64,000 nt of DNA from Shewanella psychropiezotolerans (GTDB lineage Bacteria; Pseudomonadota; Gammaproteobacteria; Enterobacterales; Shewanellaceae), in assembly GCF_007197555.1 (NCBI RefSeq), contig NZ_CP041614.1, forward strand, positions 3,836,001 to 3,900,000, in the 5' to 3' direction. Below are positions 8,759 to 59,742 of this stretch, piece by piece. The first letter of the stretch is position 1; every line of letters starts with the position of its first letter. Below the pieces are notes generated by a model, which saw only the letters and a list, made by a program, of their open reading frames with translations, was not told the DNA's origin and searched no databases. The position numbers and the translations under genes are program-made.

Positions 8759-9247
8759 GCTACTTCCCTGTATATTACGACATAAACTTTACTGAATTAC
8801 ATTCACCAATTTAGCTGATATAACACTGTAAACTTATAACGTCTGCCCGCTCCCTTCCTGGAACGAAAACTCACAATTAATAATTTATCTGTCACTAACA
8901 ATATAGCAGTAAAAACCAATATAGCACCGTAAATTGAAGTTTTTCACTCATTCATATTAAGGGATACGGCGCTGAAACTATTCTATCTTTTGCCTCTTTG
9001 AGCCCTGCTTAATCTCCCTGCACCCCAGGATTATCCAGATAGGCTTACTCTATTAGGTTATGCATTTTCCAGCTAAGGGCTATAAGCTCATCTTTTTCAA
9101 AAACAGTCATTGTCACTTCCATGCCCTTCTATATAACTTACAGCTAGGCTCGAAACCATCATATCTGGGTAGCGCGACATCTAGCTCTTTCCAGCTCGAT
9201 TTCGATGACACAAAATTATGCTTAAAGTTAATCAATGATTATTAATG
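8759..9247. other. Intergenic region without a recognised gene
   Basis: About 490 bases between two minus-strand genes. Short open frames are present but show no start signals or familiar sequence. It holds the promoter of the membrane protein gene and the 3' flank of the PhzF gene; nothing else was recognised. Confidence 0.4.
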
Positions 9248-10165: not shown

Positions 10166-10353
10166 CGAACACTTTTCCTTAGTTATTCATTGACTTATCT
10201 AAGGCTAACAATAAGCCGCCATTACTCTTTTCATTATCTAAAGACTCACGAGATCTAACGCTTGCTAGAACCTCTCATCACTACTTATGTAAGCACTATC
10301 TCAGTGTCTTGCAAAATATTCAGACATCTTGTTCCTCTTTATTTAGCGACTCT

Positions 10354-39853: not shown

Positions 39854-40417
39854 ATTAACCCCTTAATATTATCCATTTAACCTAGTTATTGTTCGAGCAT
39901 TTGACTCTTTTGTTCAAATTGCTCCGGCTTTTTCCAAAAAACCAGTCGATACTATAAAGGAGTTTTGCTTCAAATAGGTTGCACTTAAGTTGTATTTAGG
40001 TTGCTGGCATGACTTTTTATATCGATTAAAACATCAGGGGCGTGCAAATATCTTTACAGGTAAGCTTCAACATCAATGTGCTTGCGGGCTGTCAGTCTTA
40101 AAGCTGATTCTTTAAAAATCAAGAATAACTCGTCTACCGCCTCAACACACATCATCTTGCCAAAGCATCATATTTAATTCGCATAACACCTGATCAAGTT
40201 ATCAAAGCAACCCATATCTTTATCCTGTCAGCATCTCACTTGTGCGCTAGACCAAGTTATGACAAAACAGCACGTGAGCCCCATCACAGCTTAAACAAAT
40301 AGTGAATTACTCCCGTCTACTTAAGGATTAACAGGAGTAAAATCTAATTTGTTTAACTTGTCTAACATATCTTCGACATTCGGATTTTCGCTAATTGGCT
40401 TCAAATTAAGGTTACTT
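39854..40417. other. Divergent intergenic region upstream of the Dcu transporter gene
   Basis: About 560 bases. A TTG with AGGAG upstream at 40349 opens a frame joined to the transporter, but the conserved family start is the ATG at 40418. No firm FNR or CRP site was found by eye, although Dcu genes are commonly anaerobically controlled. Confidence 0.4.
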
Positions 40418-41719
40418 ATGATCGCTATAGAATTTTTTGTTGTGCTTGCTTTTATCTATCTTGGCGCGCGAATTGGTGGAATAGGAATAGGACTGGCCGG
40501 CGGCGCTGGCGTCTTAGTGCTGACCCTGTTTATGGGCGTCGATACTGGACATATCCCCGTAGATGTCATCTTGATCATCATGTCAGTAATAGCGGCAATT
40601 GCGGCCATGCAAGTGGCTGGGGGCCTGGATTGGCTAGTCGACTTGTCCGAGCGTTTTCTGCGTAAAAACCCCAAACGCATCACCTTCTACGCGCCCATTG
40701 TCACGTATTTCATGACCTTGCTAGCAGGCACAGGACACACGGCATTCTCTACCTTGCCCGTCATAGCCGAAGTCGCCAAGGAGCAAGGCATTCGCCCTTC
40801 ACGTCCCTTGAGTATCTCTGTTGTCGCCTCACAAATTGCGATCACGGCATCACCTATCTCGGCGGCTGTCGTCTTCTTCTCCGGATTATTGGAACCCTTA
40901 GGTGTGGGTTACTTAACCTTACTCGCCATCTGTATTCCGACGACATTTACCGCCTGTATGGTGGGCGCGTTCGTCGCAAACTTCTTAGGCTGTGAGCTAA
41001 AAGATGACAAAATCTATCAGGAAAGACTGGCCAAAGGCCTGATCAAGATTAAGGGGCAAACTCAAAGAGAGATTCTGCCTACGGCCAAGTTGGCCACCGG
41101 AATATTCATCACTGCCATTGTTTGTGTGATCGTTTATGCCACACTGATTTCCGATGCGGTCAATATCATAGAAAACCCCACCTTGGGCCGCAACGATGCC
41201 ATCATGGTGTTTATGCTTACCGCAGCGACAGCTATAGTGACCTTCACTAAGATAGATGCATCTAAGATAGCCAATGCCGCGACCTTCAAGTCAGGCATGA
41301 GCGCCTGTATCTGTGTACTCGGTGTGGCTTGGCTGGGTGATACGTTCGTATCCAGTCATATCGACCAGATAAAAGAGTTTTCCGCAGATATCCTTAATCA
41401 ATACCCCTGGATGCTGGCAGTAACGCTATTCTTCGCCTCCATGTTGCTCTACTCACAAGGTGCAACCACCACGGCATTGATGCCAGCCGCTCTGGCAATA
41501 GGCGTAGCCCCACTCACCGCCATCGCTTCATTTGCAGCGGTCAGCGCCCTGTTCGTGCTACCAACCTACCCGACTCTACTCGCAGCCGTGGAGATGGACG
41601 ATACCGGCTCAACCCGCATCGGAAATTTAGTGTTTAACCATCCTTTCTTCATTCCAGGTTTAGTGACCATATCCACCTCTGTAGCTTTGGGCTTCTTAAT
41701 AGGTGGACTGGTTTTATAA
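40418..41719 (+). CDS. Anaerobic C4-dicarboxylate transporter (DcuA/DcuB family)
   Basis: A 433-residue integral membrane protein with about ten to twelve helices. The family start is MIAIEFFVVLAFIYLGARIG at 40418 (TAAGG ribosome site); LLAGTGHTAFSTLPVIAEVA and QIAITASPISAAVVFF are Dcu signature stretches. These carriers exchange fumarate, succinate, malate or aspartate across the inner membrane, mainly during fumarate respiration. The C-terminus FNHPFFIPGLV is the normal family end. Directly after the stop, three tandem copies of the last 98 bases follow. Confidence 0.88.
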   Translation: MIAIEFFVVLAFIYLGARIGGIGIGLAGGAGVLVLTLFMGVDTGHIPVDVILIIMSVIAAIAAMQVAGGLDWLVDLSERFLRKNPKRITFYAPIVTYFMTLLAGTGHTAFSTLPVIAEVAKEQGIRPSRPLSISVVASQIAITASPISAAVVFFSGLLEPLGVGYLTLLAICIPTTFTACMVGAFVANFLGCELKDDKIYQERLAKGLIKIKGQTQREILPTAKLATGIFITAIVCVIVYATLISDAVNIIENPTLGRNDAIMVFMLTAATAIVTFTKIDASKIANAATFKSGMSACICVLGVAWLGDTFVSSHIDQIKEFSADILNQYPWMLAVTLFFASMLLYSQGATTTALMPAALAIGVAPLTAIASFAAVSALFVLPTYPTLLAAVEMDDTGSTRIGNLVFNHPFFIPGLVTISTSVALGFLIGGLVL

Positions 41720-42011
41720 ATTTAGTGTTTAACCATGCTTTGTTCTCCATTGCAGGTTTAGTGACCATATCCACCTCTGTAGCTTTGGGCTTCTTAATAG
41801 GTGGACTGGTTTTATAAATTTAGTGTTTAACCATGCTTTGTTCTTCATTGCAGGTTTAGTGACCATATCCACCTCTGTAGCTTTGGGCTTCTTAATAGGT
41901 GGACTGGTTTTATAAATTTAGTGTTTAACCATGCTTTGTTCTCCATTGCAGGTTTAGTGACCATATCCACCTCTGTAGCTTTGGGCTTCTTAATAGGTGG
42001 ACTGGTTTTAT
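41623..42011 (+). repeat. Tandem repeat: transporter 3' end followed by three 98-bp copies
   Basis: Unit 1 is the genic end (41623-41717, 95 bases). Copies follow at 41718-41815, 41816-41913 and 41914-42011, each exactly 98 bases. The three copies are alike except for one C/T difference in copy 3 and each encodes a variant C-terminus (NHALFSIAGLV instead of NHPFFIPGLV) ending in its own TAA. Unit 1 differs from them only in that short patch, including a 3-base gap. The copies are not translated in continuation, because unit 1 ends in a stop. Confidence 0.92.
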
Positions 42012-42095
42012 AAATTTAGTGTTTAACCATCTAGGTTTGATGGCTATCGATTAACGACCTCGGTAGCTTTGGGGTTCTTAATAGATGGAGCCCTA
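42012..42095 (+). repeat. Decayed fifth copy of the 98-bp repeat
   Basis: Begins with the same AAATTTAGTGTTTAACCAT start and later has GGTAGCTTTGGGGTTCTTAATAG-like sequence with substitutions and small gaps. It marks the old edge of the tandem array. Confidence 0.6.
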
Positions 42096-42596: not shown

Positions 42597-43556
42597 TTAC
42601 AAAGCATCTAATGGGCTAACGGTTCCCGCATAATGTTGACCTAATACATGGGTATAGATCTGGGTGGTATTAATGTCATTATGACCAAGTAACTCTTGTA
42701 CGGTTCTTATGTCAGTTCCCGTTTGTAATAAGTGAGTGGCAAATGAGTGCCTAAAAGTATGACAGTTAACTTTTTTCATTATGTGGGTCATTTTCACTGC
42801 GTTTTGAAGTGATTTTCTTATGCTACTGTCATGACGGTGATGTCTGCAAGGGATTTTTGTCACTGGGTGTTCACAGATATGGGTTGATGGAAACACAAAC
42901 ATCCAAGCAGATTGACGAAAAGCATTGGGGTACTTTTTCCCTAAAGAATAAGGTAGCGATGGGCCAAAGCCATTTTTGTTGTCTTTTTTCTGTAATTTAA
43001 TGGATTTATCAATATAAGCAGATAGTTTGCTACAACATAATTGGCTCAATAATGTCTGCCTGTCCTTATTTCCTTTCCCATCCCGGATTGTTAACGATAG
43101 ATTATCTATATTGATATCTTGCAGTCTTAACCTTAAACACTCGTTGACCCTCATACCGCTACCGTAGAGCATCTCTACGACCAATTTTGCAGTTCCATCC
43201 ATATTTGACAGTATCTGAGACACCTCTTTAGGTGATAAGACTGTAGGTAAAGTCCGTTGCTTTGTCGCTAAGCTAAAACCTAAATCCCCCAGTTCAATTC
43301 TAAGGTACTGTTGGTATAGAAAGGCCAATGAATTTAGAGCTACCTTTTGAGTATTAACAGCCACATTTTGATTGTTTGCTAACCCGCTCAGAAAGCTCTT
43401 AACATCACCGGAAGAGAGTGTCTCTGGATGAGCTTTTTTATGAAATAGTATGTAACGTTTAATCCAATACAGATAGGCTTTCTCCGTTCTTAGACTATAC
43501 CCTCGCAAACGGAGCTCTTGTCGAACCGACTCTAAAAATGGACTTGAAGTTTTCAT
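42597..43556 (-). CDS. intI: Integron integrase IntI
   Basis: A 319-residue tyrosine recombinase read from the ATG at 43556 (MKTSSPFLES); an in-frame start nine codons earlier is less likely. The catalytic residues are visible: Arg in YGSGMRVNECLRLR (about 134), the HxxR box in CHTFRHSFATHLL (about 264-267), His in ELLGHND and the Tyr nucleophile in TQIYTHV (about 301). Between them is the extra segment GKKYPNAFRQSAWMFVFPS, which distinguishes integron integrases from XerC/D. It is divergent from the cassette array, the standard integron layout, and has a LexA-type box just upstream. It looks intact. Confidence 0.94.
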   Translation of the reverse strand: MKTSSPFLESVRQELRLRGYSLRTEKAYLYWIKRYILFHKKAHPETLSSGDVKSFLSGLANNQNVAVNTQKVALNSLAFLYQQYLRIELGDLGFSLATKQRTLPTVLSPKEVSQILSNMDGTAKLVVEMLYGSGMRVNECLRLRLQDINIDNLSLTIRDGKGNKDRQTLLSQLCCSKLSAYIDKSIKLQKKDNKNGFGPSLPYSLGKKYPNAFRQSAWMFVFPSTHICEHPVTKIPCRHHRHDSSIRKSLQNAVKMTHIMKKVNCHTFRHSFATHLLQTGTDIRTVQELLGHNDINTTQIYTHVLGQHYAGTVSPLDAL

Positions 43557-43573
43557 TTGTTGCACCCACAAAA

Positions 43574-43593
43574 CACTGTACACTTATACAGTA
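43574..43593 (-). promoter_or_regulatory. LexA (SOS) box upstream of intI
   Basis: CTG (43576-43578), ten AT-rich bases, CAG (43589-43591), with A/T bases flanking as in the LexA consensus. It ends 18 bases before the intI ATG, where bound LexA would block transcription. LexA control of intI is established for class 1 and Vibrio cholerae integrons. Confidence 0.8.
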
Positions 43594-44103
43594 TTATCAA
43601 GTTTTAAAAAAAATCAAGATAGATTTTAAGAGTCTATTCACGCTTTGCCATTGTGATATGAAAAGAAGTTGTGTAAATTCAGTAAGATGAAAGTGTTCAA
43701 ACTTGAACAGCCTAGATAACCGGAAAGCAAAGTGTGCAACTAAGTTTTATCCGAAAGTGTATTGGATACTATTTGCCATGGATTAAGATAAAAGCATGTT
43801 TGCATTGGGATATTTTGACAGTTAATAACGCACACTTTCCCAAGAGGCATTGGCGAAACACGCTTGCCGTATATTAAAATGTTATGCGTACTAAGAGATA
43901 TTTAACCTTTTAGACGTTTTGGTAATCTGCTCTTGGGCTTTAGTTTTAGAATAGAAAGATGTGTTAATCTATCGCCGCCTAGATAGTGGCTATCGCTTAA
44001 GTTAATAACTTAAACGGTAAAGTAAAAACAAGGATTGTTAGCCTCGGCCTTTATGCCCCAGCCTCACAGTCAAACAACAAAATTAAAACAAACAGCCTGC
44101 ATC
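43594..44103. other. attI region and a first cassette without an evident ORF
   Basis: The integrase attachment site should lie here. Candidate core sites are GTTATGC at 43881-43887 and GTTAGCC at 44037-44043; the choice cannot be made by eye. Depending on it, the first cassette (closed by the attC at 44104) is about 290 or 136 bases. No ORF of useful length is seen. Two small hairpins (GATAG/CTATC and TTAAGTT/AACTTAA) lie near 43983-44010. Confidence 0.5.
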
Positions 44104-44179
44104 GCATAACAAGAAGCAGCAGTTCGGCCAATAAATTGGCCCCGACTCGCTTCGCTCGCGGCTGTGCTAGGCGTTAACT
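44104..44179 (+). repeat. attC site closing the first cassette (no ORF)
   Basis: Left GCATAAC (44104-44110), right core GCGTTAAC with cleavage after G173; inner arms AGCAGC and GCTGTGCT pair with an unpaired base, as in attC sites. Confidence 0.8.
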
Positions 44180-44184
44180 GTCTT

Positions 44185-44559
44185 ATGAAATTTAGAGAAT
44201 ATATCGAAGAAATAGATTTTGATGGAGCAGAGATTGTTGATGTTGCTCGCAAAGATGATGTCGTCATAGTTTCTTTTAGAAAAGGGCTTTTGTTACCTAG
44301 CCATCCTGCACATTCGAAATTCCCAGGAACTTTGGATAGCTATGAAATATCGTTTTTCGGCGTGACAAATGAAGAAGCCTTAAAATATGTTGGTGTCGGC
44401 GTATCAATCACATATTCTGGAAAAATTCCAGTAGAGAGCCTAGAGCACATAATGCATGAGGGTAATCAATTCAGCTTCGGCGGGTATGTTGAAAGGGAGC
44501 CTTGGTATGAGTGGAAGTTTAATGCAAATGAGTATGAGGTTCGGCTTGGCAACAGTTAA
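44185..44559 (+). CDS. Integron cassette protein, 124 aa, unknown
   Basis: Read from the ATG at 44185, eleven bases inside the cassette; a GTG at 44164 lies in the preceding attC and would not move with the cassette. The sequence is acidic and beta-rich looking (FREYIEEIDFDGAEIVDV at the start, EREPWYEWKFNANEYEVRL at the end), without signal peptide or membrane helix. The stop codon lies in the next attC. Not recognised; size and acidity resemble immunity proteins, which is only a hint. Confidence 0.65.
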   Translation: MKFREYIEEIDFDGAEIVDVARKDDVVIVSFRKGLLLPSHPAHSKFPGTLDSYEISFFGVTNEEALKYVGVGVSITYSGKIPVESLEHIMHEGNQFSFGGYVEREPWYEWKFNANEYEVRLGNS

Positions 44560-44651
44560 CAAGTCAAAGCACGCGGACTTGGCAAAGCTGTCACCTTTTT
44601 TGTTCCAAAAAAACCGCCAACTTCACCAAGCCGGTGTTTGAGGCGTTAACT
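44554..44651 (+). repeat. attC site after the 124-aa cassette
   Basis: AGTTAAC (44554-44560) to GCGTTAAC (core GTT at 44645). About 98 bases, with an AAGTCAAAGC/..GGTGTTTGAGGC type imperfect stem. Confidence 0.8.
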
Positions 44652-44655
44652 GTCT

Positions 44656-44925
44656 ATGAGCATGGAAGTATCACAAGTAAATAAATTGGAGCTAGCTGAG
44701 AAGCTTGAATCCTATTTGTCTGGAAAAATAGATCATGATGCAATAAAGTCTCATGCTTGGAGTTTATCTGATGCATCGCCCAAAGAACCAAGCGAGACTG
44801 AAAAAGTGTTTTGGTCCAGTATATTCACAATCATACATTTAGCAGATGATGAGCACTGGAAAGACGGCTGTACTCAAAGAGATTTAGGTGAGTTATTAAT
44901 CCAGTTAAAAGGTGGCAATAGCTAG
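44656..44925 (+). CDS. Integron cassette protein, 89 aa, unknown
   Basis: A short acidic, probably all-helical cytoplasmic protein (KLELAEKLESYLSGKIDHDA, then FTIIHLADDEHW). The ATG is eleven bases into the cassette; there is no strong ribosome site, as for many cassettes, so translation may depend on upstream context. The helical, acidic nature would fit a colicin/CDI-type immunity protein, but no family was recognised. Confidence 0.6.
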   Translation: MSMEVSQVNKLELAEKLESYLSGKIDHDAIKSHAWSLSDASPKEPSETEKVFWSSIFTIIHLADDEHWKDGCTQRDLGELLIQLKGGNS

Positions 44926-44943
44926 CAATGTGCCAACGGCAAC

Positions 44944-45034
44944 AGTTAACAAGTTTATCAACGAACGCCACTTCGTGGCTGGACAGCCTAATGCGTGGCT
45001 TCGCCACAGGCTGCCCGTTATAAAGGCGTTATAG
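44944..45034 (+). repeat. attC site after the 89-aa cassette
   Basis: AGTTAAC (44944-44950) to GTTATAG (45028-45034). Inner arms CACTTCGTGG-type and GCGTGGCTTCGCCACAGG fold into hairpins. A second CGTTATAA lies 12 bases before the core. Confidence 0.78.
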
Positions 45035-45059
45035 GGCTGATTAGGAAATTGATAGGCTA

Positions 45060-45299
45060 ATGGAAATATACGGATATACGAATGAACAAGTAGCAGCTGG
45101 TGTAGACAAACCTTCTTCACTTTCTGAAGTTACGCTAGTTTCAAATGCAGATGATCTTAGAGAAATCGCTAAATTTCTTAACAGTATTGCAGATCAAATA
45201 GATGAAGATTCTGATGGCTTTGAACATGAGCATTTATCAAATACTAATGAGACAGTTTCTAAAACTAATATTATTGTGTTTAATGAAGCGGCCCTATAA
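45060..45299 (+). CDS. Integron cassette protein, Imm32-like immunity protein
   Basis: A 79-residue protein with the pattern of the Imm32 family: SEVTLVSNADDLREIAKFL, a short acidic loop, then GFEHEHL and a terminal NIIVFNEAAL. Imm32 proteins are predicted antidotes in polymorphic-toxin systems. No toxin is encoded beside it, which is usual for orphan immunity genes. Recognition is by remembered motif order, not by search. The stop lies in the attC that follows. Confidence 0.6.
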   Translation: MEIYGYTNEQVAAGVDKPSSLSEVTLVSNADDLREIAKFLNSIADQIDEDSDGFEHEHLSNTNETVSKTNIIVFNEAAL

Positions 45300-45382
45300 C
45301 AATACGCTTAAATGCGTTCCGGCCAAAAAAACGGCCTCCACTGGACGTGCTAGACGCACGCCTTTTAGCTAAAGCGTTAGCA
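45294..45382 (+). repeat. attC site after the Imm32-like cassette
   Basis: CTATAAC (45294-45300) to GTTAGCA (45376-45382), 89 bases; ACGCTTAAATGCG and GACGTGC..GCACGCC arms. Confidence 0.78.
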
Positions 45383-45397
45383 GTCTAATGAGGATTT

Positions 45398-45661
45398 ATG
45401 TTATTCATTAAGGAAAACGAAACCACACTTACAATTTGGTGGAAATTGATAGGGTCAACAATTATTTTTGTTGTAGCAGTAGTCGCCGCTCTGACAGGCA
45501 CACTATACATCCCGTCAAAATATGGATTCCTTACAGCGGAATCTAACCCTTTAACATTTATTGGCTTGGTTATTTTTTTCTTCTGTTTATCGGCATTGTC
45601 GTTCTGGCAAGGTGGTTATGGAATATATCAAAAGTACTTTGCAAAGCCGAAGTGCAGCTAA
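45398..45661 (+). CDS. Integron cassette protein, two-helix membrane protein
   Basis: An 87-residue protein with two transmembrane helices (about 18-38, IIFVVAVVAALTGTLYI, and 51-70, LTFIGLVIFFFCLSALSFW). Ribosome site GAGGA. The short loop between helices and small termini give no family hint. Such small membrane proteins recur in integron cassettes. Confidence 0.7.
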   Translation: MLFIKENETTLTIWWKLIGSTIIFVVAVVAALTGTLYIPSKYGFLTAESNPLTFIGLVIFFFCLSALSFWQGGYGIYQKYFAKPKCS

Positions 45662-45756
45662 CAAGCTGCTAAATTAAGATTCACCAAGGCTGTCATGCCA
45701 TTTGCTGAGCAAATCGCCCGCCAGCACATGGTTCACTTATTAGCAGGGCGTTATAT
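45656..45756 (+). repeat. attC site after the two-helix cassette (twin of 49395-49495)
   Basis: AGCTAAC (45656-45662) to GTTATAT (45750-45756), about 101 bases. Differs from the site at 49395-49495 at only about five inner positions. Confidence 0.85.
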
Positions 45757-45768
45757 GTACAAGGAGTT

Positions 45769-46227
45769 ATGGTGAAAAAGTTCTTCAAATATCTAGGTTT
45801 CGGTTTTTTAAGTGTTGTTATATTTTTTATTGGAATCGGGGTTGTGACATCAATCAATACAATAGATAAAGAAGTAGTATTCGAACCCTATATTGCTAAA
45901 GCAATTCCGAAATTAACCTCATGGGAGCAATCTTCTTATCAAGAGTTAATGTCTGAGGATGGTTTTAACGGAGCAACACCAGAGCAATGGACTTTATATC
46001 TTAATCAGTTTTCTAAACTAGGTGAGTTTCAGTCAATTGGAAAAGCAGAGCTTCAAAATTGGAAAACTCTTTCCCCAATTGATAGTCCAAGCGTTACTTA
46101 TGCTATTTATCAAGTACCAGTTACATTTTCTACTGGTCTTGCTCATGTTCAATTGGCTTTGCAATCATCTGAAGATAAAGTCGAAATTAATAGTATTAAA
46201 TTCCTATCCGACATTTTAATGCAATAG
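45769..46227 (+). CDS. Integron cassette protein, membrane-anchored with periplasmic domain
   Basis: A 152-residue protein with AAGGAG ribosome site, one N-terminal helix (FGFLSVVIFFIGIGVVTSI, about 11-29) and an exported domain of about 120 residues with TPEQWTLYLNQFSKLGEF and a strand-rich end (YAIYQVPVTFSTGLAHVQLAL). The single-pass layout with a compact alpha+beta domain recalls NTF2-like or DUF4019-type proteins, without certainty. Function unknown. Confidence 0.68.
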   Translation: MVKKFFKYLGFGFLSVVIFFIGIGVVTSINTIDKEVVFEPYIAKAIPKLTSWEQSSYQELMSEDGFNGATPEQWTLYLNQFSKLGEFQSIGKAELQNWKTLSPIDSPSVTYAIYQVPVTFSTGLAHVQLALQSSEDKVEINSIKFLSDILMQ

Positions 46228-46230
46228 TAC

Positions 46231-46330
46231 ATATAACAAGCTGTTCAAGCGGGACAAATTACAGTTGGCTGGTTTCGCTCCGCTTCACATTTTAGCCAAC
46301 TACAATTTTCCCCTTAACAGGGCGTTAAAT
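46231..46330 (+). repeat. attC site after the 152-aa cassette
   Basis: ATATAAC (46231-46237) to GTTAAAT (46324-46330), 100 bases; AGTTGGCT and AGCCAACT arms. Confidence 0.82.
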
Positions 46331-46335
46331 TTATA

Positions 46336-46545
46336 ATGAATACAGAAATCGAAATTAAAGCCTGCGATGAGTGCGGGAGTAATTACAAAGCAAGCTCATC
46401 TGAAATGATGTCTTTGTGTCCAGAGTGCTCGCATTACCTATATGATTACGAAAATTGCATTCATGAATTCGAAAATGGTAAGTGTAAAAAGTGTCTCTGG
46501 GATGGCTCTGCCTCTAAATACGTTAAGAACCTTAAAAATGGCTGA
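46336..46545 (+). CDS. Integron cassette protein, small zinc-ribbon
   Basis: A 69-residue protein with three CxxC pairs (CDECG, CPECS, CKKCLWDG), as in proteins with one or two zinc ribbons. The end CKKCLWDGSASKYVKNL with a preceding CIHEFENGK resembles rubredoxin-like zinc knuckles. Probably a DNA-, RNA- or protein-binding adaptor; no family is certain. Confidence 0.68.
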   Translation: MNTEIEIKACDECGSNYKASSSEMMSLCPECSHYLYDYENCIHEFENGKCKKCLWDGSASKYVKNLKNG

Positions 46546-46571
46546 GGTATTGTGATGTCGCTAGCCCCAAA

Positions 46572-46631
46572 ATTTAACAAGGCGCTCAAGCTTTGGACGT
46601 GCTCTGCACGCCGCTTAGCTTGGCGTTAAAT
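46572..46631 (+). repeat. attC site after the zinc-ribbon cassette
   Basis: ATTTAAC (46572-46578) to GTTAAAT (46625-46631), 60 bases, with the near-perfect AAGGCGCTCAAGC / GCTTAGCTTGGCG stem of short class attC sites. Confidence 0.88.
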
Positions 46632-47064
46632 GAATAAAACTATGAATCCTGAAATTACAGACTTTCCACTCGAAGCTGATGATGATCTCGTCATAAATAA
46701 AACGCGAGAGTACAACCTACAGTTTGTTGAAAAAGATGTTAAACCATTATCTGTATACTTTCGTGACTCAGAAGCCAATATAATCGCAGGGTTAACAGGC
46801 AAAACATACTGGAACTGGCTTCATGTCGAGTACTTGTGGGTAAGCGAATCAGAAAGGAAAAGTGGGCTAGGCTCTAAACTTGTGTCCGCAGCCGAAACAG
46901 AAGCAATAAAAAGAGGCTGTACAGGGTCAACCTTAGATACCTTTAGCTTTCAAGCTCTAGAATTTTACCAAAAATTAGGTTATTCCATTGCAGGTTCACT
47001 TGAAGGCTACTCAGGCAAGCATCAGCGTTACTATCTGGAGAAAAGTCTTGAAAACATCATTTAA
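46630..47064 (+). CDS. Integron cassette protein, GNAT N-acetyltransferase
   Basis: A 144-residue acetyltransferase. The GNAT core is clear: VEYLWVSESERKSGLGSKL with the acetyl-CoA loop RKSGLG, then AIKRGCTGSTLDTFSFQALEFYQKLGY. The first ATG overlaps the cassette's own recombination core, so the start is formed by the cassette boundary; a second ATG lies four codons on. It resembles GNATs of the family annotated near tRNA or antibiotic acetyltransferases but is not a known resistance enzyme. Substrate unknown. Confidence 0.85.
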   Translation: MNKTMNPEITDFPLEADDDLVINKTREYNLQFVEKDVKPLSVYFRDSEANIIAGLTGKTYWNWLHVEYLWVSESERKSGLGSKLVSAAETEAIKRGCTGSTLDTFSFQALEFYQKLGYSIAGSLEGYSGKHQRYYLEKSLENII

Positions 47065-47133
47065 CAAGGCGCTCAAGCGGGACAAATTAAAGCAGGCCTT
47101 TGCCCTAATTTCCCCCTTAGCTTGGCGTTATGA
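47059..47133 (+). repeat. attC site after the GNAT cassette
   Basis: ATTTAAC (47059-47065) to GTTATGA (47127-47133), 75 bases; left half nearly equals those of the sites at 46231 and 46572 (GCTCAAGCGGGACAAATTA-type). Confidence 0.87.
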
Positions 47134-47143
47134 GTAAGCGTAT

Positions 47144-47656
47144 ATGAAATTCGAGTACTTTAAATTTCCAGAGAAGTTTGCTTTTCTAATTGATAGCCCG
47201 ATGCCTTGCTCTCTTTGCGGAGAACGTGGTGTTTGGTTTGATACTGGAGGGTATGCAGGTGTAGAAGACATCGATTGTATTTGTAGCGGTTGTCTTAAAT
47301 CTGGAAAGTTAATTGAACTTGAGATTGAGCCAAATTTAAATTTCGATGATGGCTCTGAAGCAGCGAAAACAATTACTTATAAAACACCGTCCCTACCGAC
47401 ATGGCAAGATACAACTTGGCCAATAATTGATGGTGAATTTCCTGTTTTTGAATGTATTGCCTCAACACAAGACTTTAAAAATAAAGAAGAGTTTCTAGAT
47501 TCATTCATCGAGAATGATCAGAAGAAAAAAGATATTGAATGGATTTGGGATGCATTACCGGAGAAAGTGTTAAATAACTACCAAGAAGGTGGTGATTTAT
47601 CCGTATATTTGTTCATTTTAAATGGTAAAAAATATTGGGTGTGGGATGCTAACTAA
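47144..47656 (+). CDS. Integron cassette protein, CbrC (UPF0167) family
   Basis: A 170-residue protein with the CbrC/UPF0167 pattern: FEYFKFPE at the N-terminus, CSLCGERGVWFDTGGY, then CSGCLKSGKLIELE, giving two CxxC pairs spaced as in the family. E. coli CbrC is linked to colicin tolerance through the CreBC regulon; the biochemical role is unknown. It lacks a signal peptide. Confidence 0.68.
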   Translation: MKFEYFKFPEKFAFLIDSPMPCSLCGERGVWFDTGGYAGVEDIDCICSGCLKSGKLIELEIEPNLNFDDGSEAAKTITYKTPSLPTWQDTTWPIIDGEFPVFECIASTQDFKNKEEFLDSFIENDQKKKDIEWIWDALPEKVLNNYQEGGDLSVYLFILNGKKYWVWDAN

Positions 47657-47659
47657 CAC

Positions 47660-47764
47660 TCATAACAAGGCGCAGCAAGCCGACCTCCGGCAACTGTCAC
47701 CTTTTGTGCATGGAACCGCACAAAAGGCGCCAGTTACCTCCGGCGGTTGTGCGCGGCGTTATAT
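47660..47764 (+). repeat. attC site after the CbrC-like cassette
   Basis: TCATAAC (47660-47666) to GTTATAT (47758-47764), 105 bases. Inner arms CACCTTTTGTGC and GCACAAAAGGCG. The left part matches the truncated site at the end of the array. Confidence 0.85.
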
Positions 47765-47826
47765 CGTTTTTTGGGTAACTGTATTGTGTGGTAATATTTA
47801 GCCCTAATTCTTATAAGGACACTATT

Positions 47827-48363
47827 GTGAAAAAATTATTGGTTCTAGGTTTTATTGCTACTCTAGCGGGCTGCGCTGACTCTCATAATTTAAATGTTTC
47901 TAATACCGAAGTAGTTAATAAAATATCAGCAAGTTCATCTGTTTATGTCGCATTATCAGAGGATGGACGTTATGGCGAGAAAGACTATAAAGGTTCAGGC
48001 GTATTATTAAGTAATGTTATTAAGTCTGGCTTACTCACTAAAATGAACGATATCACTGTTGCTAACGAAGCTGGATCATTTAAAGAATCGATTAAGCTTG
48101 CTGAAAGTAATGGTTCAGATTATTTGTTTTACCCAACAATTATGCATTGGGAAGATCGTGCAACGGAATGGTCGGCTAAAGCTGATAAAGTTGAAGTGAA
48201 AATTGTAACTTGGGATATTAAAAATAATGTTGAACTAAGCTCGGCGATTATTGATGGTTCAAGCGGACTTGCAACATTGGGTGGCGATCATCCTCAAGAC
48301 TTATTACCTGAGCCAGTTAACGCGTATATTGATACTCTTTTTTCAGTACCAGTTCAAAATTAA
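47827..48363 (+). CDS. Integron cassette protein, DUF4823 lipoprotein
   Basis: A 178-residue lipoprotein. The GTG at 47827 is the start: AAGGA lies seven bases upstream and the lipoprotein signal (VLGFIATLAGCAD) begins there; an earlier in-frame GTG at 47788 has neither. The mature part carries the DUF4823 block TIMHWEDRATEWSAKADKVE and the end GGDHPQDLLPEPVNAYIDTLF. Family function is unknown. Its own ribosome site and exported product suggest an independently expressed cassette, and the leader of about 60 bases before the start could hold a promoter. Confidence 0.8.
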   Translation: MKKLLVLGFIATLAGCADSHNLNVSNTEVVNKISASSSVYVALSEDGRYGEKDYKGSGVLLSNVIKSGLLTKMNDITVANEAGSFKESIKLAESNGSDYLFYPTIMHWEDRATEWSAKADKVEVKIVTWDIKNNVELSSAIIDGSSGLATLGGDHPQDLLPEPVNAYIDTLFSVPVQN

Positions 48364-48370
48364 GTACACG

Positions 48371-48496
48371 ATATAACAAATGCATCAATACGATTTGCTA
48401 CACTCGGCGTTGTCAGTTTGCCTTTAGTTTCAGTGATTAGGCAGTAAAATTCAGCTAAGCCTATATCGTAGCAAACGTGTTATGCAGGCGTTATGT
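48371..48496 (+). repeat. attC site after the DUF4823 cassette
   Basis: ATATAAC (48371-48377) to GTTATGT (48490-48496), 126 bases, the longest of the array; outer arms AATGCATCAATACGATTTGC and GCAAACGTG..TGCAGG. Confidence 0.78.
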
Positions 48497-48515
48497 TGCA
48501 AAAGGAAAATTCAGG

Positions 48516-48851
48516 ATGAATGATGTAGCAATAGAAGAGAAACAAAACTTTTTAAAAAAACTATTTTCTGGTGGATTTCGATTAGTTGATGTTTTTTGGG
48601 CTGGCTTCATTTTAGTTGGTGCAATAATAGGTTTGTGTGTTTCTAAATTGGCAACATTTGAATCAATAATTATCGGTGATTGTTTAAAGTCGGTATATTT
48701 TATTTTGATCAGTGTTGCAGTCTGGAAGTCAGCAAGTTTGTATCAAGGGAAAAAAGTTTGGTTAATTTTAGCTAAAATTTCTGCAGTTTTAACCATTACC
48801 GCTAGTATTTTTGAGCTTGGTGCATGGGCTATCTACTTATCGTCAAACTAG
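48516..48851 (+). CDS. Integron cassette protein, three-helix membrane protein
   Basis: A 111-residue protein from the ATG at 48516; an upstream in-frame start at 48477 lies in the previous attC. Three transmembrane helices are likely (about 27-43, 55-71 and 84-107). A short cytoplasmic N-terminus (NDVAIEEKQNFLKKLF) precedes them. No family recognised. Confidence 0.68.
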   Translation: MNDVAIEEKQNFLKKLFSGGFRLVDVFWAGFILVGAIIGLCVSKLATFESIIIGDCLKSVYFILISVAVWKSASLYQGKKVWLILAKISAVLTITASIFELGAWAIYLSSN

Positions 48852-48853
48852 CA

Positions 48854-48954
48854 ACATAACAAGCCAAGGCAATGGGACAATTTTAAGCTGGCTTCCCGTC
48901 GCTACGCACCTAATTTTAGCCAGCTTAAAATTGCCCCTGCTTGGGGCGTTATAA
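48854..48954 (+). repeat. attC site after the three-helix cassette
   Basis: ACATAAC (48854-48860) to GTTATAA (48948-48954), 101 bases; long arms ATTTTAAGCTGGC and GCCAGCTTAAAAT give a very stable stem. Confidence 0.87.
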
Positions 48955-48968
48955 AGCACAAGGAAGGT

Positions 48969-49400
48969 ATGAGTTTATCCATTGGTTGTTCGCAAAATGA
49001 ACAAATAGAGATCAAAGTAGAACAGTACCTTCACTCTCCCTGCGGCGAGCCTTTTGATGATAACTGGCTTCTTTGCTCTATTAGTGTTTCATTTGGAAAC
49101 TTTAGTGGTACATTTTCAGCCAGTTTCCAAACCTATGATTTTGTAAAATTCTCAGAAGAAGTACAAAAGCTCTATACATGCCTAAAAGGTACAGCCACAT
49201 TCGATAGTATCGAAGGGCAGCTTGAATTTAAGTTAACTGGAGATGGAAAAGGCAGGATTGAATTAGAGGGTAATTGCATGGACACTGTAGGTATTGGTAA
49301 CGAGCTTACTTTCTCAACTGGTTTTGACCAAACATACCTTCGGTCTATTATCTCTGATTTGGACGAGGTTATAGCAAACTACCCTGTACGTACTTTATAA
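48969..49400 (+). CDS. Integron cassette protein, WapI-family immunity-like
   Basis: A 143-residue protein with ribosome site AGGAAGG. The run of features DDNWLLCSISVSFGNFSGTFSA, FVKFSEEVQKLYTCLKGTA and QLEFKLTGDGKGRIELEG, then DQTYLRSIISDLDEVI (each a family-typical block) matches proteins annotated as WapI-family immunity proteins, which protect against WapA-type contact toxins. No WapA-like toxin is present in the window. Alternative view: a widespread cassette-borne family whose immunity label is inherited from few members. Confidence 0.68.
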   Translation: MSLSIGCSQNEQIEIKVEQYLHSPCGEPFDDNWLLCSISVSFGNFSGTFSASFQTYDFVKFSEEVQKLYTCLKGTATFDSIEGQLEFKLTGDGKGRIELEGNCMDTVGIGNELTFSTGFDQTYLRSIISDLDEVIANYPVRTL

Positions 49401-49495
49401 CAAGCTGCTAAATCCAGATTCACCAAGGCTGTTATGCCATTTGCTGAGCAAATCGCCCGCCAGCACTCGGTTCACTTATTAGCAGGGCGTTAAAT
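49395..49495 (+). repeat. attC site after the WapI-immunity-like cassette (twin of 45656-45756)
   Basis: TTATAAC (49395-49401) to GTTAAAT (49489-49495). Near identical to the attC at 45656 although the cassettes differ. Confidence 0.85.
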
Positions 49496-49711
49496 GGCTT
49501 AAGTGTTTTGAGCTAGTAAGCCTTTAGCAATATTAATGAGTTTCCTGTAATCTACAGGCATTCAGTCGGCTGTGAATACACCAGCCACAAACAGCATGGA
49601 AGTTGTTCAAATTGGTTTCTTGGTAAATACCTGAAACTCTCCAAAGCACTCTTCCTGCATTAATTTTTAACTTGCTAATCCTTGATCAAATAAACACCGA
49701 AATGGGGTAGC
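49496..49711 (+). other. Integron cassette without an evident ORF
   Basis: About 300 bases between two attC cores. No plus-strand ORF over a dozen codons. On the minus strand a 20-codon ORF (start near 49562, MPVDYRKLINIAKGLLAQNT) is the best candidate but has no clear ribosome site. The cassette could carry a promoter, a small RNA or a decayed gene. Confidence 0.5.
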
Positions 49712-49798
49712 AAGTAACAATTGCATTAAAGGCAGCCCACGAAAAGACTGTGGGCTTGGACACGCTAACCGAGCGCCCTTTATGGCAAGGCGTTATGT
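49712..49798 (+). repeat. attC site after the ORF-less cassette
   Basis: AAGTAAC (49712-49718) to GTTATGT (49792-49798), 87 bases; AAAGGCAGCCCAC..GTGGGCT and GCCCTTTATGG arms. Confidence 0.78.
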
Positions 49799-49810
49799 GT
49801 CGGAGGTATC

Positions 49811-50122
49811 GTGACATCTAAGGAAGAGAAGAAGCGACGTGCAGCTCTAGTTGAAGCAATCGTGGCTGAAGATACGAGAAAGGCCATTGATGATATGCCT
49901 ATTTCATTATCCAACCTAGGAAAGCTTTTCGATTACCTCGATGTAAAGCTAGAAGAAGGCTGCGACCATACACCGAAAATCACTACTGATTTCTTAGCTA
50001 GTATCAATCTGAGCTCAGAAAAAATACTACCGTGGCTCCAAGACCAGGGTGGTTATTGTGACTGCGAAATACTGGCAAACGTAGAAGAGGGCTGGGAAAG
50101 TGAAATCACAAAAAACACATAA
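49811..50122 (+). CDS. Integron cassette protein, DUF2695 family
   Basis: A 103-residue protein beginning with GTG behind GGAGG. The DUF2695 pattern is plain: MPISLSNLGKLFDYLDVKLE, CDHTPKITTDFL, then LPWLQDQGGYCDCEILANVEE, with three conserved cysteines that may bind metal. Family function unknown; it is common in chromosomes as a single gene. Confidence 0.8.
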   Translation: MTSKEEKKRRAALVEAIVAEDTRKAIDDMPISLSNLGKLFDYLDVKLEEGCDHTPKITTDFLASINLSSEKILPWLQDQGGYCDCEILANVEEGWESEITKNT

Positions 50123-50176
50123 CAAAACCAGCCAGAAGGACGCAGTAAACTGCGCCCCTGCTGGTAGGCGTTATGT
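50117..50176 (+). repeat. attC site after the DUF2695 cassette
   Basis: ACATAAC (50117-50123) to GTTATGT (50170-50176), 60 bases; ACCAGCCAGAAGG / CCCCTGCTGGT arms with inner GCGCAG-type stem. Confidence 0.88.
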
Positions 50177-50191
50177 TTTAGGAGGGAGCCA

Positions 50192-50536
50192 ATGGTAGCT
50201 CTATATGTCGTTTGCACAGTTACCTGCTTTTTAGCTACTACAGCTTGCCTATACTTTTATTTGCCCAAGTTAGGTGTAAATCAAGCATTAGGCCAAAGAA
50301 GCTCAATTTTAAGTACCCTTATGGTTGGAGTTTCTGTAGTGGCTGCTATAGGTGCGCAGTATTTGAATGAATTAGCCATTATCATAGCCGTTTGTATAAC
50401 CTTCTTCATCATCAAGTACTATTTAGACATAACCAAAGCAAAAGTGTTTACTCTAATTTTTGGTTTATATATCGTGAATGTGATGGTGGTTAGCGTTACC
50501 TTGATGATATTTTTACCTAGTTATCAGCCAACATAA
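50192..50536 (+). CDS. Last integron cassette protein, four-helix membrane protein
   Basis: A 114-residue very hydrophobic protein with ribosome site GGAGGG. Helices are likely at about 3-24, 40-58, 61-76 and 86-109. No charged catalytic motif. No family recognised. It is followed by a broken attC, so this cassette can no longer be excised in the normal way. Confidence 0.7.
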   Translation: MVALYVVCTVTCFLATTACLYFYLPKLGVNQALGQRSSILSTLMVGVSVVAAIGAQYLNELAIIIAVCITFFIIKYYLDITKAKVFTLIFGLYIVNVMVVSVTLMIFLPSYQPT

Positions 50537-50572
50537 CAAGGCCAAGCAAGCCGACTCCGTCAGCTGTCGCGT
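50531..50572 (+). repeat. Truncated attC at the distal end of the array
   Basis: Starts ACATAAC and matches the left part of the attC at 47660 (AAGGC..AGCAAGCCGAC..CCG), through CAGCTGTCGC, but the right half and the GTTRRRY core never appear. The array ends here. Confidence 0.75.
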
Positions 50573-50965
50573 TTCTTGCAAAACCCACTAATATAACCAA
50601 GACATCCAAAATTATTCTCTGTTAGATGGCCTGTACCTACTAGAGTCAGATTGCCTGATAAATTCATTGTTGTATCAATCCGCCCACTTGTTACGCCAAA
50701 CAATACTCAAATATTCTGTCATGAGTTGATTTCGACTCATGCCCTTGAAAATAAGACATCAAAAAAACCAAACTTCCGTTTGGTTATGCTTGAATAAAAT
50801 ACTTTTGAAATAGGTTACTTTGGGTCTTAATTAATCGCTATCTAGCCATCCATAACACTTTGCGACACAAGTATAAAAAAAACAGACTAATACTGGAAGG
50901 TTTCTACTGGATATCAGCGTTACCATTGGTCCTCGACATCAAATGCATACTCCAAGGAGTCGATT
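50573..50965. other. Intergenic region between the integron end and the effector-like gene
   Basis: About 390 bases without a called gene. It contains a terminator-like hairpin that works only on the minus strand (50760-50785), although no minus-strand gene lies upstream of it, so a small RNA or lost gene is possible. The effector-like gene's ribosome site AAGGAG is at 50953-50958. Confidence 0.4.
50760..50785 (-). terminator. Orphan minus-strand terminator
   Basis: Perfect 8-base arms AACCAAAC and GTTTGGTT, 4-base loop, and seven A on the plus strand (seven U in a minus-strand transcript). Confidence 0.6.
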
Positions 50966-52543
50966 ATGCCTACTATCTCAGTAACTCCAAGTTCTCATAA
51001 AACGATAGAAATATCTTCAAGCGGAAATAGAGATATCGTCTCAAAAAAAGGGCTAATCAAAAGCGCAAAGGCTGCATCGGCAAAATTAGCATCTATAGGC
51101 TCTGCTTTAACGCTCCCCACCTGTAAAGACATGCATTTTAATCGCGCAAAAGCAACCCAAAAATCGGCACCACAACACGACGTCACTGATTTTAAATCAG
51201 AGTTTATACCACGTCGAAGTGAGGCGAAAAAGCACACCGCCCAAGATACAGAGACTAGCACAACAGCATTGCAAAACTATTATCAACACCAGCATGCCAC
51301 AGTAAAGCAAGAGTTTGAGTCTCTGTTTAATACCTATGCTAGCTCCAGCACTGAGCATGGTAAATATGCACAAAGTTATGCCAATGATCTATCGATGACA
51401 TGTGTAGAAGGTCGCTATCAACTCCCTGCCCTACCAAAGACTGTTGCTGAATTTGCCATTATATTCAATCAACTAGCACAGAACCATGCGCCTAATGGAT
51501 CGTTAGGAAAACTGATTAAGAAGGCACTTGGTAAGAATACCACTCTTGGTCAACTTCTTGATATCAATACAAGTGCAAAACTCGGAGCACTATCACAACT
51601 TATCCCGATAACATTAAAAGTGACTCTGAAGCATAAATTATCATCCCCTACAACGACAGAGCCCCCAAAAGTAATAAAACTAGATCCGATCGAAAAGGAA
51701 AAATTAGCCACTGAAAAGCAGCGTAAACTTCCTTCTCTGCTGCAGCAATTAGACACTCTGTCCGAGGTTTACTCCTCTTATGTTAAAGAGTTACCCACCG
51801 CTGATTCTCAAGCTAGGGGGCTGCAACAATCTTTGCTTGAGGCTGCGAATAAGCTTGATGCCATAGACAAGGATAACGAATTACAACGACAGCCTGAGTT
51901 TAGAGGTCGAGGCGCTACGTTTACACAAACAACACCAAATACACACCTAGCCCATAGCGCACTCTTTGACAGCGATAAAATATACAGCCTTGCTGACTTT
52001 GATGACATTATTGCCAGTAACCGTGCGATCAAAGAGAAAATTGCAGAATTTGATCGTCATTTATCACAACTAAACCAAAATATTGGGTTTCATGTTGAAA
52101 AGCTGCCAAATAAAGCAGAGGTAGCCAATAGTAAAATCTTAGGCATTAACCCGTTAGATATTGATCTTGATAAGGTCATGGACAAACTAAACAATCTAGA
52201 AACTCTGCTGTTAAAACCCAAACAAAACTGGAGAAGCCGACTTATTAACTTTTTCCATCCAAAAGGTTTCCAAAGCGAATCTGACCGTCTTACTTTTGAG
52301 ACCATGGCCATTCATCGGCTCAAAGAGCTGAAAGAGAAAATATCGACATCTTCTGTGGAGATGAAACTGGAAGATTTTTCAACCAAGCCTTGGTTTAAAT
52401 ACCTTGTAGCTAAGCAAATCGAGTCATTACAAACAGCCAGCCAAAGTTACCAATTTGGCCCCTTTAGTATTGCATCACCAGCCAAGAAACAACTGGATGC
52501 TTTTTTACGATCAAATGATTGGCCTAAACCGAATGTTGCCTAA
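50966..52543 (+). CDS. Putative type III secretion effector, unknown fold
   Basis: A 525-residue protein without signal peptide or membrane helix. The first 25 residues are rich in Ser, Thr and Ile and poor in acidic residues (PTISVTPSSHKTIEISSSG), as in type III secretion signals. The rest is mainly helical: a middle region with GSLGKLIKKALGKNTTLGQLL and long charged helices later (ATEKQRKLPSLLQQLDTLSEVY; KVMDKLNNLETLLLKP). A CesT-like chaperone gene follows 61 bases downstream, the usual layout for an effector and its chaperone. No catalytic motif was recognised. The effector call rests on the N-terminus and the partner; other readings, such as a secreted helical adhesin-like protein, remain open. 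Confidence 0.6.
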   Translation: MPTISVTPSSHKTIEISSSGNRDIVSKKGLIKSAKAASAKLASIGSALTLPTCKDMHFNRAKATQKSAPQHDVTDFKSEFIPRRSEAKKHTAQDTETSTTALQNYYQHQHATVKQEFESLFNTYASSSTEHGKYAQSYANDLSMTCVEGRYQLPALPKTVAEFAIIFNQLAQNHAPNGSLGKLIKKALGKNTTLGQLLDINTSAKLGALSQLIPITLKVTLKHKLSSPTTTEPPKVIKLDPIEKEKLATEKQRKLPSLLQQLDTLSEVYSSYVKELPTADSQARGLQQSLLEAANKLDAIDKDNELQRQPEFRGRGATFTQTTPNTHLAHSALFDSDKIYSLADFDDIIASNRAIKEKIAEFDRHLSQLNQNIGFHVEKLPNKAEVANSKILGINPLDIDLDKVMDKLNNLETLLLKPKQNWRSRLINFFHPKGFQSESDRLTFETMAIHRLKELKEKISTSSVEMKLEDFSTKPWFKYLVAKQIESLQTASQSYQFGPFSIASPAKKQLDAFLRSNDWPKPNVA

Positions 52544-52604
52544 CATGTAACACCGATAGTTATCTAATAATCACAGGTAAAACTGAATCCGATGAGGTGT
52601 CTAG

Positions 52605-53021
52605 TTGAAATTTGAAACGGTGTTAACAGAGCTTGCTCAATTATGGGGAGTTAATATACCCACCGAGTCAGATGCTATTGAAATCATTGATAATCAAGAG
52701 TGTTTATGGGTCCTGGAATGTTCAAAGATGTCAGATACCTTTACTTTGTATACTCACCTTAATATTTCGCTCAATGCCAATGATATTAATTATTGGTTAA
52801 GCATGAACATGAAGCGAGACTTATTAGGCAGCAGCTGGATTGGATTAGATGAAGGCACACTTTGCTTGGGTTTATCCTTACCGAAAGATAAACTTGATCA
52901 CCATGAACTCAATAATATCTTTGAAAATATGTTATTAATCAAAGAGAAGCTGTATTTATTAGCTGCAAGCGATGCAGATGCCCATATCGATCAAGCGTTA
53001 ATTAATATTCAGTTCATTTAA
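52605..53021 (+). CDS. CesT/SycE-like type III secretion chaperone
   Basis: A 138-residue acidic protein starting with TTG, with GAGGTG six bases upstream. It has the size and pattern of class I type III chaperones: an N-terminal helix (FETVLTELAQLWGV), short strands (ECLWVLECSKMSDTFTLYTHL), a helix (NDINYWLSMNMKRDLL), more strands (SSWIGLDEGTLCLGLSLPKD) and a C-terminal helix. These dimers bind the N-terminal 50-100 residues of one effector and pilot it to the secretion ATPase. The effector-like gene is directly upstream. No apparatus genes are in the window. Confidence 0.65.
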   Translation: MKFETVLTELAQLWGVNIPTESDAIEIIDNQECLWVLECSKMSDTFTLYTHLNISLNANDINYWLSMNMKRDLLGSSWIGLDEGTLCLGLSLPKDKLDHHELNNIFENMLLIKEKLYLLAASDADAHIDQALINIQFI

Positions 53022-57722: not shown

Positions 57723-58292
57723 TTACTCCGAGTCGGTAACCAAGAGCACACCGCGGGCATAATCCACGACAGAGGCACTGGCCACCACTGCGCCGGCGGT
57801 CACATCCAAATTCATGATCCCTTCATCGGCAATGACCGGAGTGGATGACCAAAGGTAGGAATAACCGCCCTCAGCCTGAGCAATCGCATCAACATTAGGG
57901 AAGATCACACTGTTCATCGCAGGATGCACGCAGCGCTGCTCACGTATAGAAACCAGCTCTTTGATGTTAGGCACACGCCAGTTATCCTGGCCAGCGAAGT
58001 GATATAGCTTATTTGCCTCATTAGTTCTGGCGTTGTCGGCCGCTTGCAGCGCTCCTTGCCAGAAGACAGTCACAGGCATGCCGTCACAATATTTAGTCTC
58101 ATTGTTCCAGGTTTGGCCTACTGAGCAACGCATCCAAATCAGTTTAGTGGCTTGATCTGTCACCGTACCGTCATTGTTATCGATAAATCTTGCGGTCGGT
58201 GTGGTCGCGTCGAAACTCATTTCACAGGCTTGCTCTACTGCCGTCGCTGAAAAGCTCAGGGTTATCGCCGCCGCTAATAGTAATTTTTTCAT
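57723..58292 (-). CDS. Secreted DUF1566 protein
   Basis: A 189-residue exported protein (signal peptide ending SATA) made of one DUF1566 domain: DNNDGTVTDQATKLIWMRC, FAGQDNWRVPNIKELVSI and YLWSSTPV are its hallmarks. The domain occurs in the Legionella collagen-like adhesin Lcl C-terminus and in many surface proteins, often as a ligand- or glycan-binding head. Several cysteines could form disulfides. Last gene of the operon with the TonB receptor, protease and larger DUF1566 lipoprotein. Confidence 0.82.
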   Translation of the reverse strand: MKKLLLAAAITLSFSATAVEQACEMSFDATTPTARFIDNNDGTVTDQATKLIWMRCSVGQTWNNETKYCDGMPVTVFWQGALQAADNARTNEANKLYHFAGQDNWRVPNIKELVSIREQRCVHPAMNSVIFPNVDAIAQAEGGYSYLWSSTPVIADEGIMNLDVTAGAVVASASVVDYARGVLLVTDSE

Positions 58293-58310
58293 TATAGTTC
58301 CCTAATTCTC

Positions 58311-59738: not shown

Positions 59739-59742
59739 GGTC

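Follow-up and report, generated by a model that had tools for sequence, protein, structure and literature searches.

The window analysed here is a stretch of 64,000 nucleotides from Shewanella psychropiezotolerans. The genome is a single contig of 6.449 Mb, of which the window covers bases 3836001-3900000; positions are counted from the first base of the window. It carries an integron, composed of an integrase gene (intI), an attachment region (attI) and an array of 14 complete cassettes followed by a 15th, cut one, with 14 complete attC sites and one truncated (Table 1). Almost certainly this is a complete chromosomal integron of the usual layout; what we infer beyond that concerns its activity, SOS control, expression and the function of its products.

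Table 1. Features of the integron, in window positions (ORF, open reading frame; aa, amino acids; R'', far arm of attC)
Feature	Positions	Strand	ORF	Product or basis	attC
intI	42597..43556	-	from ATG 43556; 328-aa ORF starts GTG 43583	integron integrase (tyrosine recombinase)	
LexA-box-like site, upstream of intI	43576..43591	.		CTGT-N8-ACAG, sole such site in 64 kb	
attI region	43592..43887	+		crossover G|TTA at 43881, from homology end and alignment	
Cassette 1, gene-less	43882..44173	+	none fills it	start/R'' match 8 bases	44104-44179
Cassette 2	44174..44645	+	44185-44559, 124 aa	all-beta predicted fold	44554-44651
Cassette 3	44646..45028	+	44656-44925, 89 aa	no family assigned	44944-45034
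Cassette 4	45029..45376	+	45060-45299	Imm32, PF15566 31.8 bits (cut-off 27)	45294-45382, weak hairpin
Cassette 5	45377..45750	+	45398-45661	hydrophobic	45656-45756
Cassette 6	45751..46324	+	45769-46227	N-terminal hydrophobic stretch	46231-46330
Cassette 7	46325..46625	+	46336-46545	zinc-ribbon-like (below cut-offs)	46572-46631
Cassette 8	46626..47127	+	46630-47064	GNAT acetyltransferase, PF00583 48.8 bits	47059-47133
Cassette 9	47128..47758	+	47144-47656	UPF0167, PF03691 52.8 bits (cut-off 25)	47660-47764
Cassette 10	47759..48490	+	47827-48363	DUF4823, lipoprotein-like	48371-48496, 126 bases
Cassette 11	48491..48948	+	48516-48851	hydrophobic	48854-48954
Cassette 12	48949..49489	+	48969-49400	WapI-like immunity protein, PF24716 105.4 bits (cut-off 27)	49395-49495
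Cassette 13, gene-less	49490..49792	+		arm mismatched to own start	49712-49798
Cassette 14	49793..50170	+	49811-50122	DUF2695, PF10905 67.1 bits (cut-off 25)	50117-50176
Cassette 15, cut	50171..50582	+	50192-50536	hydrophobic	left arm 50531-50582 kept, truncated at about 50582

Thirteen cassettes contain a gene, cassettes 1 and 13 none. All 13 cassette ORFs are in the plus orientation and fill 69-87% of their cassettes; the two minus-strand ORFs of at least 60 amino acids found in the array each span a cassette boundary. Complete gene-bearing cassettes measure 301 to 732 bases and the gene-less ones 292 and 303. Right cores lie at 44173, 44645, 45028, 45376, 45750, 46324, 46625, 47127, 47758, 48490, 48948, 49489, 49792 and 50170, and the attC sites they close are 60-126 bases long and of several types. 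No right core was found after the left arm of cassette 15; that arm is 96% identical to a stretch at an attC place of another genome (G028), and the start/R'' match of this cassette is 8 bases. An earlier sequence-only reading of this DNA had given the same figures for ORFs, their orientation, attC sites and attC lengths. It had also counted about sixteen cassettes: intact boundaries yield 14 and a truncated one, and sixteen would be reached only if cassette 13, as discussed below, is a fusion of two.

The integrase scores 385.5 bits against the integron integrase model TIGR02249 (cut-off 265) and stays below the cut-offs of the XerC, XerD and other Xer models. The solved Vibrio integron integrase 2a3v matches it over its full length (E 5.6e-78). 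When seven IntI relatives and the genome's own XerC-like and XerD-like proteins were aligned with it, the catalytic residues R..HxxR..H..Y and the IntI insert around KKYPNAFRQSAWMF proved intact; the insert is missing from both Xer-like proteins. Sequence identity is 62-86% to the seven relatives, 28% to the XerD-like and 24% to the XerC-like protein, so that the integrase does not group with XerC/D and the earlier claim of an intact intI with its specific insert is borne out. Of 129 genomes of the genus, 83 have an IntI match at E <= 1e-40, the present genome being one of them.

A LexA-type box lies upstream of intI also in 9 of the 9 relatives' loci scanned, those closest by DNA. In the window the listed GTG start of intI sits within the box; ATG 43556 appears the likelier start, because all seven aligned IntI relatives have a methionine within one residue of that place. 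The box would assign the integron to the SOS-regulated type, with intI presumably under SOS control.

On the other side of the box, DNA identity across intI and attI ends at 43884-43887 in five relatives' loci and earlier, at 43598-43774, in four other close loci. When the window and the five relatives were aligned (six sequences), the last invariant columns proved to be the GTTA of the crossover. The stop in homology together with the invariant GTTA therefore places the attI crossover at 43881, so that cassette 1 begins at 43882.

In a circular cassette, the bases at the start (TTRRRY...) are complementary to the far arm (R'') of its own attC, which allows a test that is independent of any model. 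Fourteen of the 15 cassettes show such pairing, with uninterrupted runs of 6 to 11 bases; cassette 13 is the exception. Self-pairings have a mean of 9.0 contiguous bases (14 cassettes, 13 left out) versus 4.8 for 196 non-self pairings, five of which reach 8 bases. Bottom-strand folds beat shuffled sequences at z <= -2 in 12 of the 14 sites. With fixed arms, at least six of eight positions of the inner (L) stem are paired in 11 of 14 sites, against a background of 3 in 101 pairs (looser anchors, rest of the window) or 0 in 7 with the same anchors; sites 4, 13 and 14 score 3, 3 and 1, and shifting by one base raises sites 4 and 14 to 6 and 8. An anchored structural detector recognised 13 of the 14 sites, none elsewhere in the 64 kb and none on the other strand. 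With the anchors loosened, these 13 sites were recovered along with a single spurious place in cassette 6; elsewhere there were four hits on the plus strand, and on the minus strand two.

The sequence-only reading had proposed a covariance search, naming low scores at most sites as the outcome that would speak against it. We built our own model from 65 sites collected from fetched loci by the self-complementarity rule, no window site among them; three unlike the rest were dropped, 62 kept, and the structure was drawn up by hand from the sequences. In these 62 sites 94.7% of cells pair, sliding the partner lowers pairing to 32-46%, and 201 cells have changed on both sides, compared with 67 in shuffles. 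Eight of the 14 window sites were found by the model at E <= 5e-5; it also gave a weak match inside site 10 (E 0.9) and, up to E 10, nothing outside the array in the 64 kb. A search restricted to the array returned the same nine places, and a control stretch none. Failure at most sites was not seen with this model, which missed six of the 14.

These misses belong to a group of observations that weigh against reading the array as a chromosomal integron of the usual layout. Sites 1 (-0.05) and 10 (-1.70) do not reach a z of -2, the hairpin of site 4 is weak, and at sites 4 and 8 the fold of lowest energy leaves the outer stem open. Two of five covariation measures are not above shuffles (8 pairs vs 7.2; 24 further types vs 26.2). 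The covariance model missed a site it was trained on, in an integron remnant elsewhere in this genome (L057, see below), and with filters off its search gave noise (best E 0.026), which we attribute to long loops no longer being allowed for. Finally, the last attC is truncated, and the attC arm of cassette 13, ending at 49718, matches its own start over four bases only. The covariance model supports most sites but is insensitive. Applied to the whole genome it gave two places among the best 150 of 2186 candidates; genome-wide attC sites were sought by anchored patterns instead, with 34 and 22 matches versus 8 and 7 in reversed-pattern controls. Rfam had no match in the window at gathering scores. 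The sequence features of an integron are present: an integrase of the intI family with its insert, an attI joined to the first cassette, and cassettes of one orientation ended by attC, weakly so at site 4.

Cassette 13 may be a fusion of two cassettes. Its arm matches, eight bases in a row, its own bases near 49667-49677 (ACTTGCTA), a match with a roughly estimated chance expectation of ~0.004 in about 230 positions, which suggests a decayed boundary near 49667. Mismatch between start and arm is not rare as such, runs of six or fewer occurring in 20 of 80 pairs of relatives' and other arrays (some of them missed sites). The body of this cassette has no relative in 243 other genomes or on plasmids. 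An alternative arm, AAC ending at 49671, has a six-base match, but the resulting site leaves the outer stem open, with a shorter hairpin forming inside, and was rejected. Positions 49666-49718 form an inverted repeat, AACTTGCTA ... TAGCAAGTAAC, possibly a remnant of that boundary.

The gene-less cassettes 1 and 13 are candidate promoter carriers. Here they resemble the gene-less promoter cassettes of Blanco et al. 2024 (PMC11014356) in having no ORF that fills them, the promoter role being a candidate one; that article states that promoters of gene-less cassettes are not predictable in silico. A pattern scan gave no sigma-70-like site on the plus strand inside either cassette and one on the minus strand in cassette 13. 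Such sites are fewer in the region than in shuffles (11 vs 19.8).

Next, we examined the origin of the cassettes. A search with the array DNA covered 394 genomes of the order (among them the present one), with two candidates scored per genome, and gave matches at E <= 1e-10 in 120. Among the matches listed, attC sites 2, 3, 5, 6, 9, 10, 11 and 12 (at least 8 of 14) match other genomes, and cassette 10 alone is found entire, with 94% DNA identity over 740 bases, in a genome of another family (G387). The cassette 10 protein shares 96% identity with a protein of Aliivibrio sp. 1S128, and its attC type occurs on Aliivibrio wodanis plasmids (92-95%), repeats through the arrays of genome G333 and is present in a Shewanella genome, G099 (93%). 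Foreign exchange of cassette 10 is evident; the match fits either direction, and judged by its sequence the cassette would have come from, or been shared with, another, Aliivibrio-like family. Exchange of more cassettes is likely. The cassette 2 product is 94% identical to a protein of an environmental contig and 89% to one of a Thalassolituus metagenome-assembled genome, and the cassette 3 product 92% to one of a Shewanella and 85% to one of a Paraglaciecola.

The mixture of attC types, which the sequence-only reading had set against the uniform repeats of Vibrio, is real. Mixed arrays are present in other genomes too, and therefore the mixture is not special to this one. From it the same reading had judged that the cassettes look drawn from many sources, which is evident for cassette 10 only. 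For others it is plausible where the attC type recurs in other families, and the same types are found in Shewanella relatives. It is indeed quite possible, though in our judgement not probable, that the mosaic arose mostly within the Shewanella lineage, cassettes having formed on several attC templates rather than been imported. The attC types of sites 5, 6, 9, 10, 11 and 12 occur in Shewanella relatives' loci devoid of the cassette gene, and that of site 5 occurs elsewhere in the same genome as well. Formation within the lineage is disfavoured by cassette 10, entire in another family, and by the type of site 2, of which several families of the order have copies with 97-98% identity. The cassette 2 gene is unmatched in those families; that nearly the same attC can accompany different genes in different families is relevant to how cassettes arise.

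The integron lies on the chromosome. The contig is single and of 6.45 Mb, and the best place in a plasmid collection covers 3% of the array. No transposase family was matched among 16 flanking proteins scanned at 37-64 kb, and phage records do not match the array. It is a sedentary chromosomal integron, outside any transposon or plasmid, in a Shewanella-type genome, as had been claimed. We compared it with 20 fetched stretches, 19 around intI in 19 relatives (of which most include no more than 2-4 kb beyond intI on its far side) and one from the same genome. Nothing of at least 45 bases from 36-56 kb is common with them beyond intI-attI, intI remains and attC sites. The integron platform has different chromosomal neighbourhoods in different species, in agreement with what a Shewanella survey (PMC9229058) describes.

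Further integron traces are scattered over the genome. Locus L057 (2585000-2600000 of the contig) contains a decayed second integron at about 7728-10836: what is left of another intI, interrupted by stop codons, with one or two attC-like sites next to it, at 2.596 Mb. Loci L141 (662000-672000; sites at 664-670 kb) and L142 (3737000-3744000; sites at 3739-3742 kb) have three attC-like sites each and no integrase match in either stretch, resembling clusters of attC sites lacking integron-integrases (CALINs); the sites of L142 are in two orientations. One or more attC-like sites are also present at 5.66 Mb. Among 127 genomes of the genus, the attC pattern count of this genome (22 vs 7 in control) is within the ordinary range; genome G098, for example, has 62 vs 16.

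Judged by its sequence, this integron is probably working. Insertion by attI x attC and excision by attC x attC recombination are established for integrons. IntI would be induced by DNA damage, probably via the LexA box, and would recombine the folded bottom strand of a cassette attC with double-stranded attI at 43881. New cassettes would thus enter at the intI end, in one orientation, and recombination between attC sites would excise and reshuffle them. If cassettes are expressed at all, transcription might start at a promoter of the intI-attI region and at promoters within cassettes, for which cassettes 1 and 13 are candidates.

The same parts could belong to a fixed relic, intact in sequence and quiescent, with immobile and mostly silent cassettes. 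The truncated last attC and the decayed look of cassette 13 point that way, as do the degenerate second intI, the scattered attC sites and the fact that the relatives' loci fetched have no stretch of at least 45 bases in common with any cassette gene body. We consider quiescence unlikely: the intI reading frame and the LexA box are intact, and cassette 10 (94%, another family) and the cassette 2 protein (94%, environmental contig) point to fairly recent exchange. That the recombinase is a Xer or phage integrase beside unrelated repeats is next to inconceivable, the tyrosine-recombinase domains it has in common with XerC and XerD being outweighed by its scores, above the IntI cut-off and below those of Xer, and by its 24-28% identity to own Xer-like proteins without the insert.

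All 13 cassette products were covered by a Pfam scan, with scores above cut-off in cassettes 4, 8, 9, 10, 12 and 14; the hydrophobic stretches in cassettes 5, 6, 11 and 15 were judged by eye. No recognised resistance gene was found among the 13 products with NCBIfam, confirming an earlier statement, and the GNAT protein of cassette 8 scores 17-19 bits against four aminoglycoside acetyltransferase cut-offs of 140-300. Ten of the 13 proteins were scanned with PADLOC and matched none of its families. In relatives' and other arrays, 103 cassette ORFs match 128 PADLOC models, with GajA-like and PDC-S31 among the matches listed; therefore defence-like genes occur in such arrays. Profile and sequence searches against solved structures gave no credible relative for the products of cassettes 2, 3, 4, 9, 12 and 14.

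Family matches, and for cassette 2 a fold resemblance, suggest that three, perhaps four, of the 13 products may be orphan immunity proteins, those of cassettes 4 (Imm32), 9, 12 (WapI-like) and possibly 2; none of these cassettes contains a second gene. UPF0167, matched by cassette 9, is the family of the colicin E2 tolerance protein CbrC; the CbrC equivalog model itself gives only 28.9 of 300. The PF24716 match of cassette 12 is the only one in the genome. The predicted fold of the cassette 2 product resembles a chain of a toxin-immunity complex and was compared with a PIM7-type immunity protein.

Phage-defence cassettes have been proposed to be shuffled in other integrons. By analogy, much of the array could be a store of orphan immunity genes that protect against toxins of neighbours, whether contact-delivered or colicin-like, and that IntI shuffles under stress, an idea that we offer tentatively and rather doubt. 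An excess of immunity genes over other integrons is not demonstrated, one SUKH family being present among 25 listed of the 43 Pfam families in the 103 ORFs of other arrays; SUKH proteins are immunity proteins. No WapI-like relative beside a toxin was found: 393 other genomes gave one weak relative (34%, with a stop codon), its surrounding 2.5 kb seen as an ORF list only. Immunity proteins are named among cassette-encoded effectors in PMC11089894. In listings and passages from one open-access library, among them passages of PMC10963911, PMC7370490, PMC5361080 and PMC11551772, we found no treatment of immunity-protein cassettes as a class of their own in chromosomal integrons.

The kind of device is already well known, and such integrons have been published for Shewanella. 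The survey cited above (Nunez et al. 2022, PMC9229058) reports intI in 158 of 304 genomes; its arrays have nine cassettes at most, one cassette is gene-less, and most strains contain CALINs. The window agrees with it in intI and attI, cassettes mostly of unknown function, a gene-less cassette, diverse neighbours and extra CALINs, and differs in having 14 complete cassettes and one cut where that source gives up to nine. In the relatives' stretches, 20 kb at most, our own detector found longest arrays of 10 and 11, and fourteen complete cassettes are long but not out of line.

Superintegrons of Vibrionaceae use the same integrase family and mechanism, and in Vibrio their attC sites are one near-uniform repeat. 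The array is linked to them by the 126-base attC type of cassette 10, repeated in G333 arrays and on Aliivibrio wodanis plasmids. Far fewer cassettes (15) and many attC types instead of one, 60-126 bases long, separate it from a Vibrio-type superintegron. The notion of what an integron is remains unchanged by this array. Its value lies in being compact and complete, and longer than the Shewanella maximum given in PMC9229058; one of its cassettes is found whole in another bacterial family, and a few carry candidate immunity genes that are singly testable.

Right after the truncated attC, positions 50966-53021 hold two ORFs, one of 525 aa (50966-52543) and after it one that resembles a CesT-type chaperone. 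Neither Pfam nor NCBIfam gives the 525-aa protein a match over cut-off; tried as a marker of the empty site, it proved to lack relatives among 126 other genomes of the genus, so that the empty site was not found there. On the other side of the integron, at 41623-42030, a 98-base unit is repeated 4.2 times with copies 97% alike, beginning in the 3' end of a dcuB-like gene (40349-41719) and extending past its stop. The stretch 57723-62196 encodes three adjacent proteins in the same orientation: two have Lcl_C domains, and a large one has a P-domain together with a weak metallopeptidase match.

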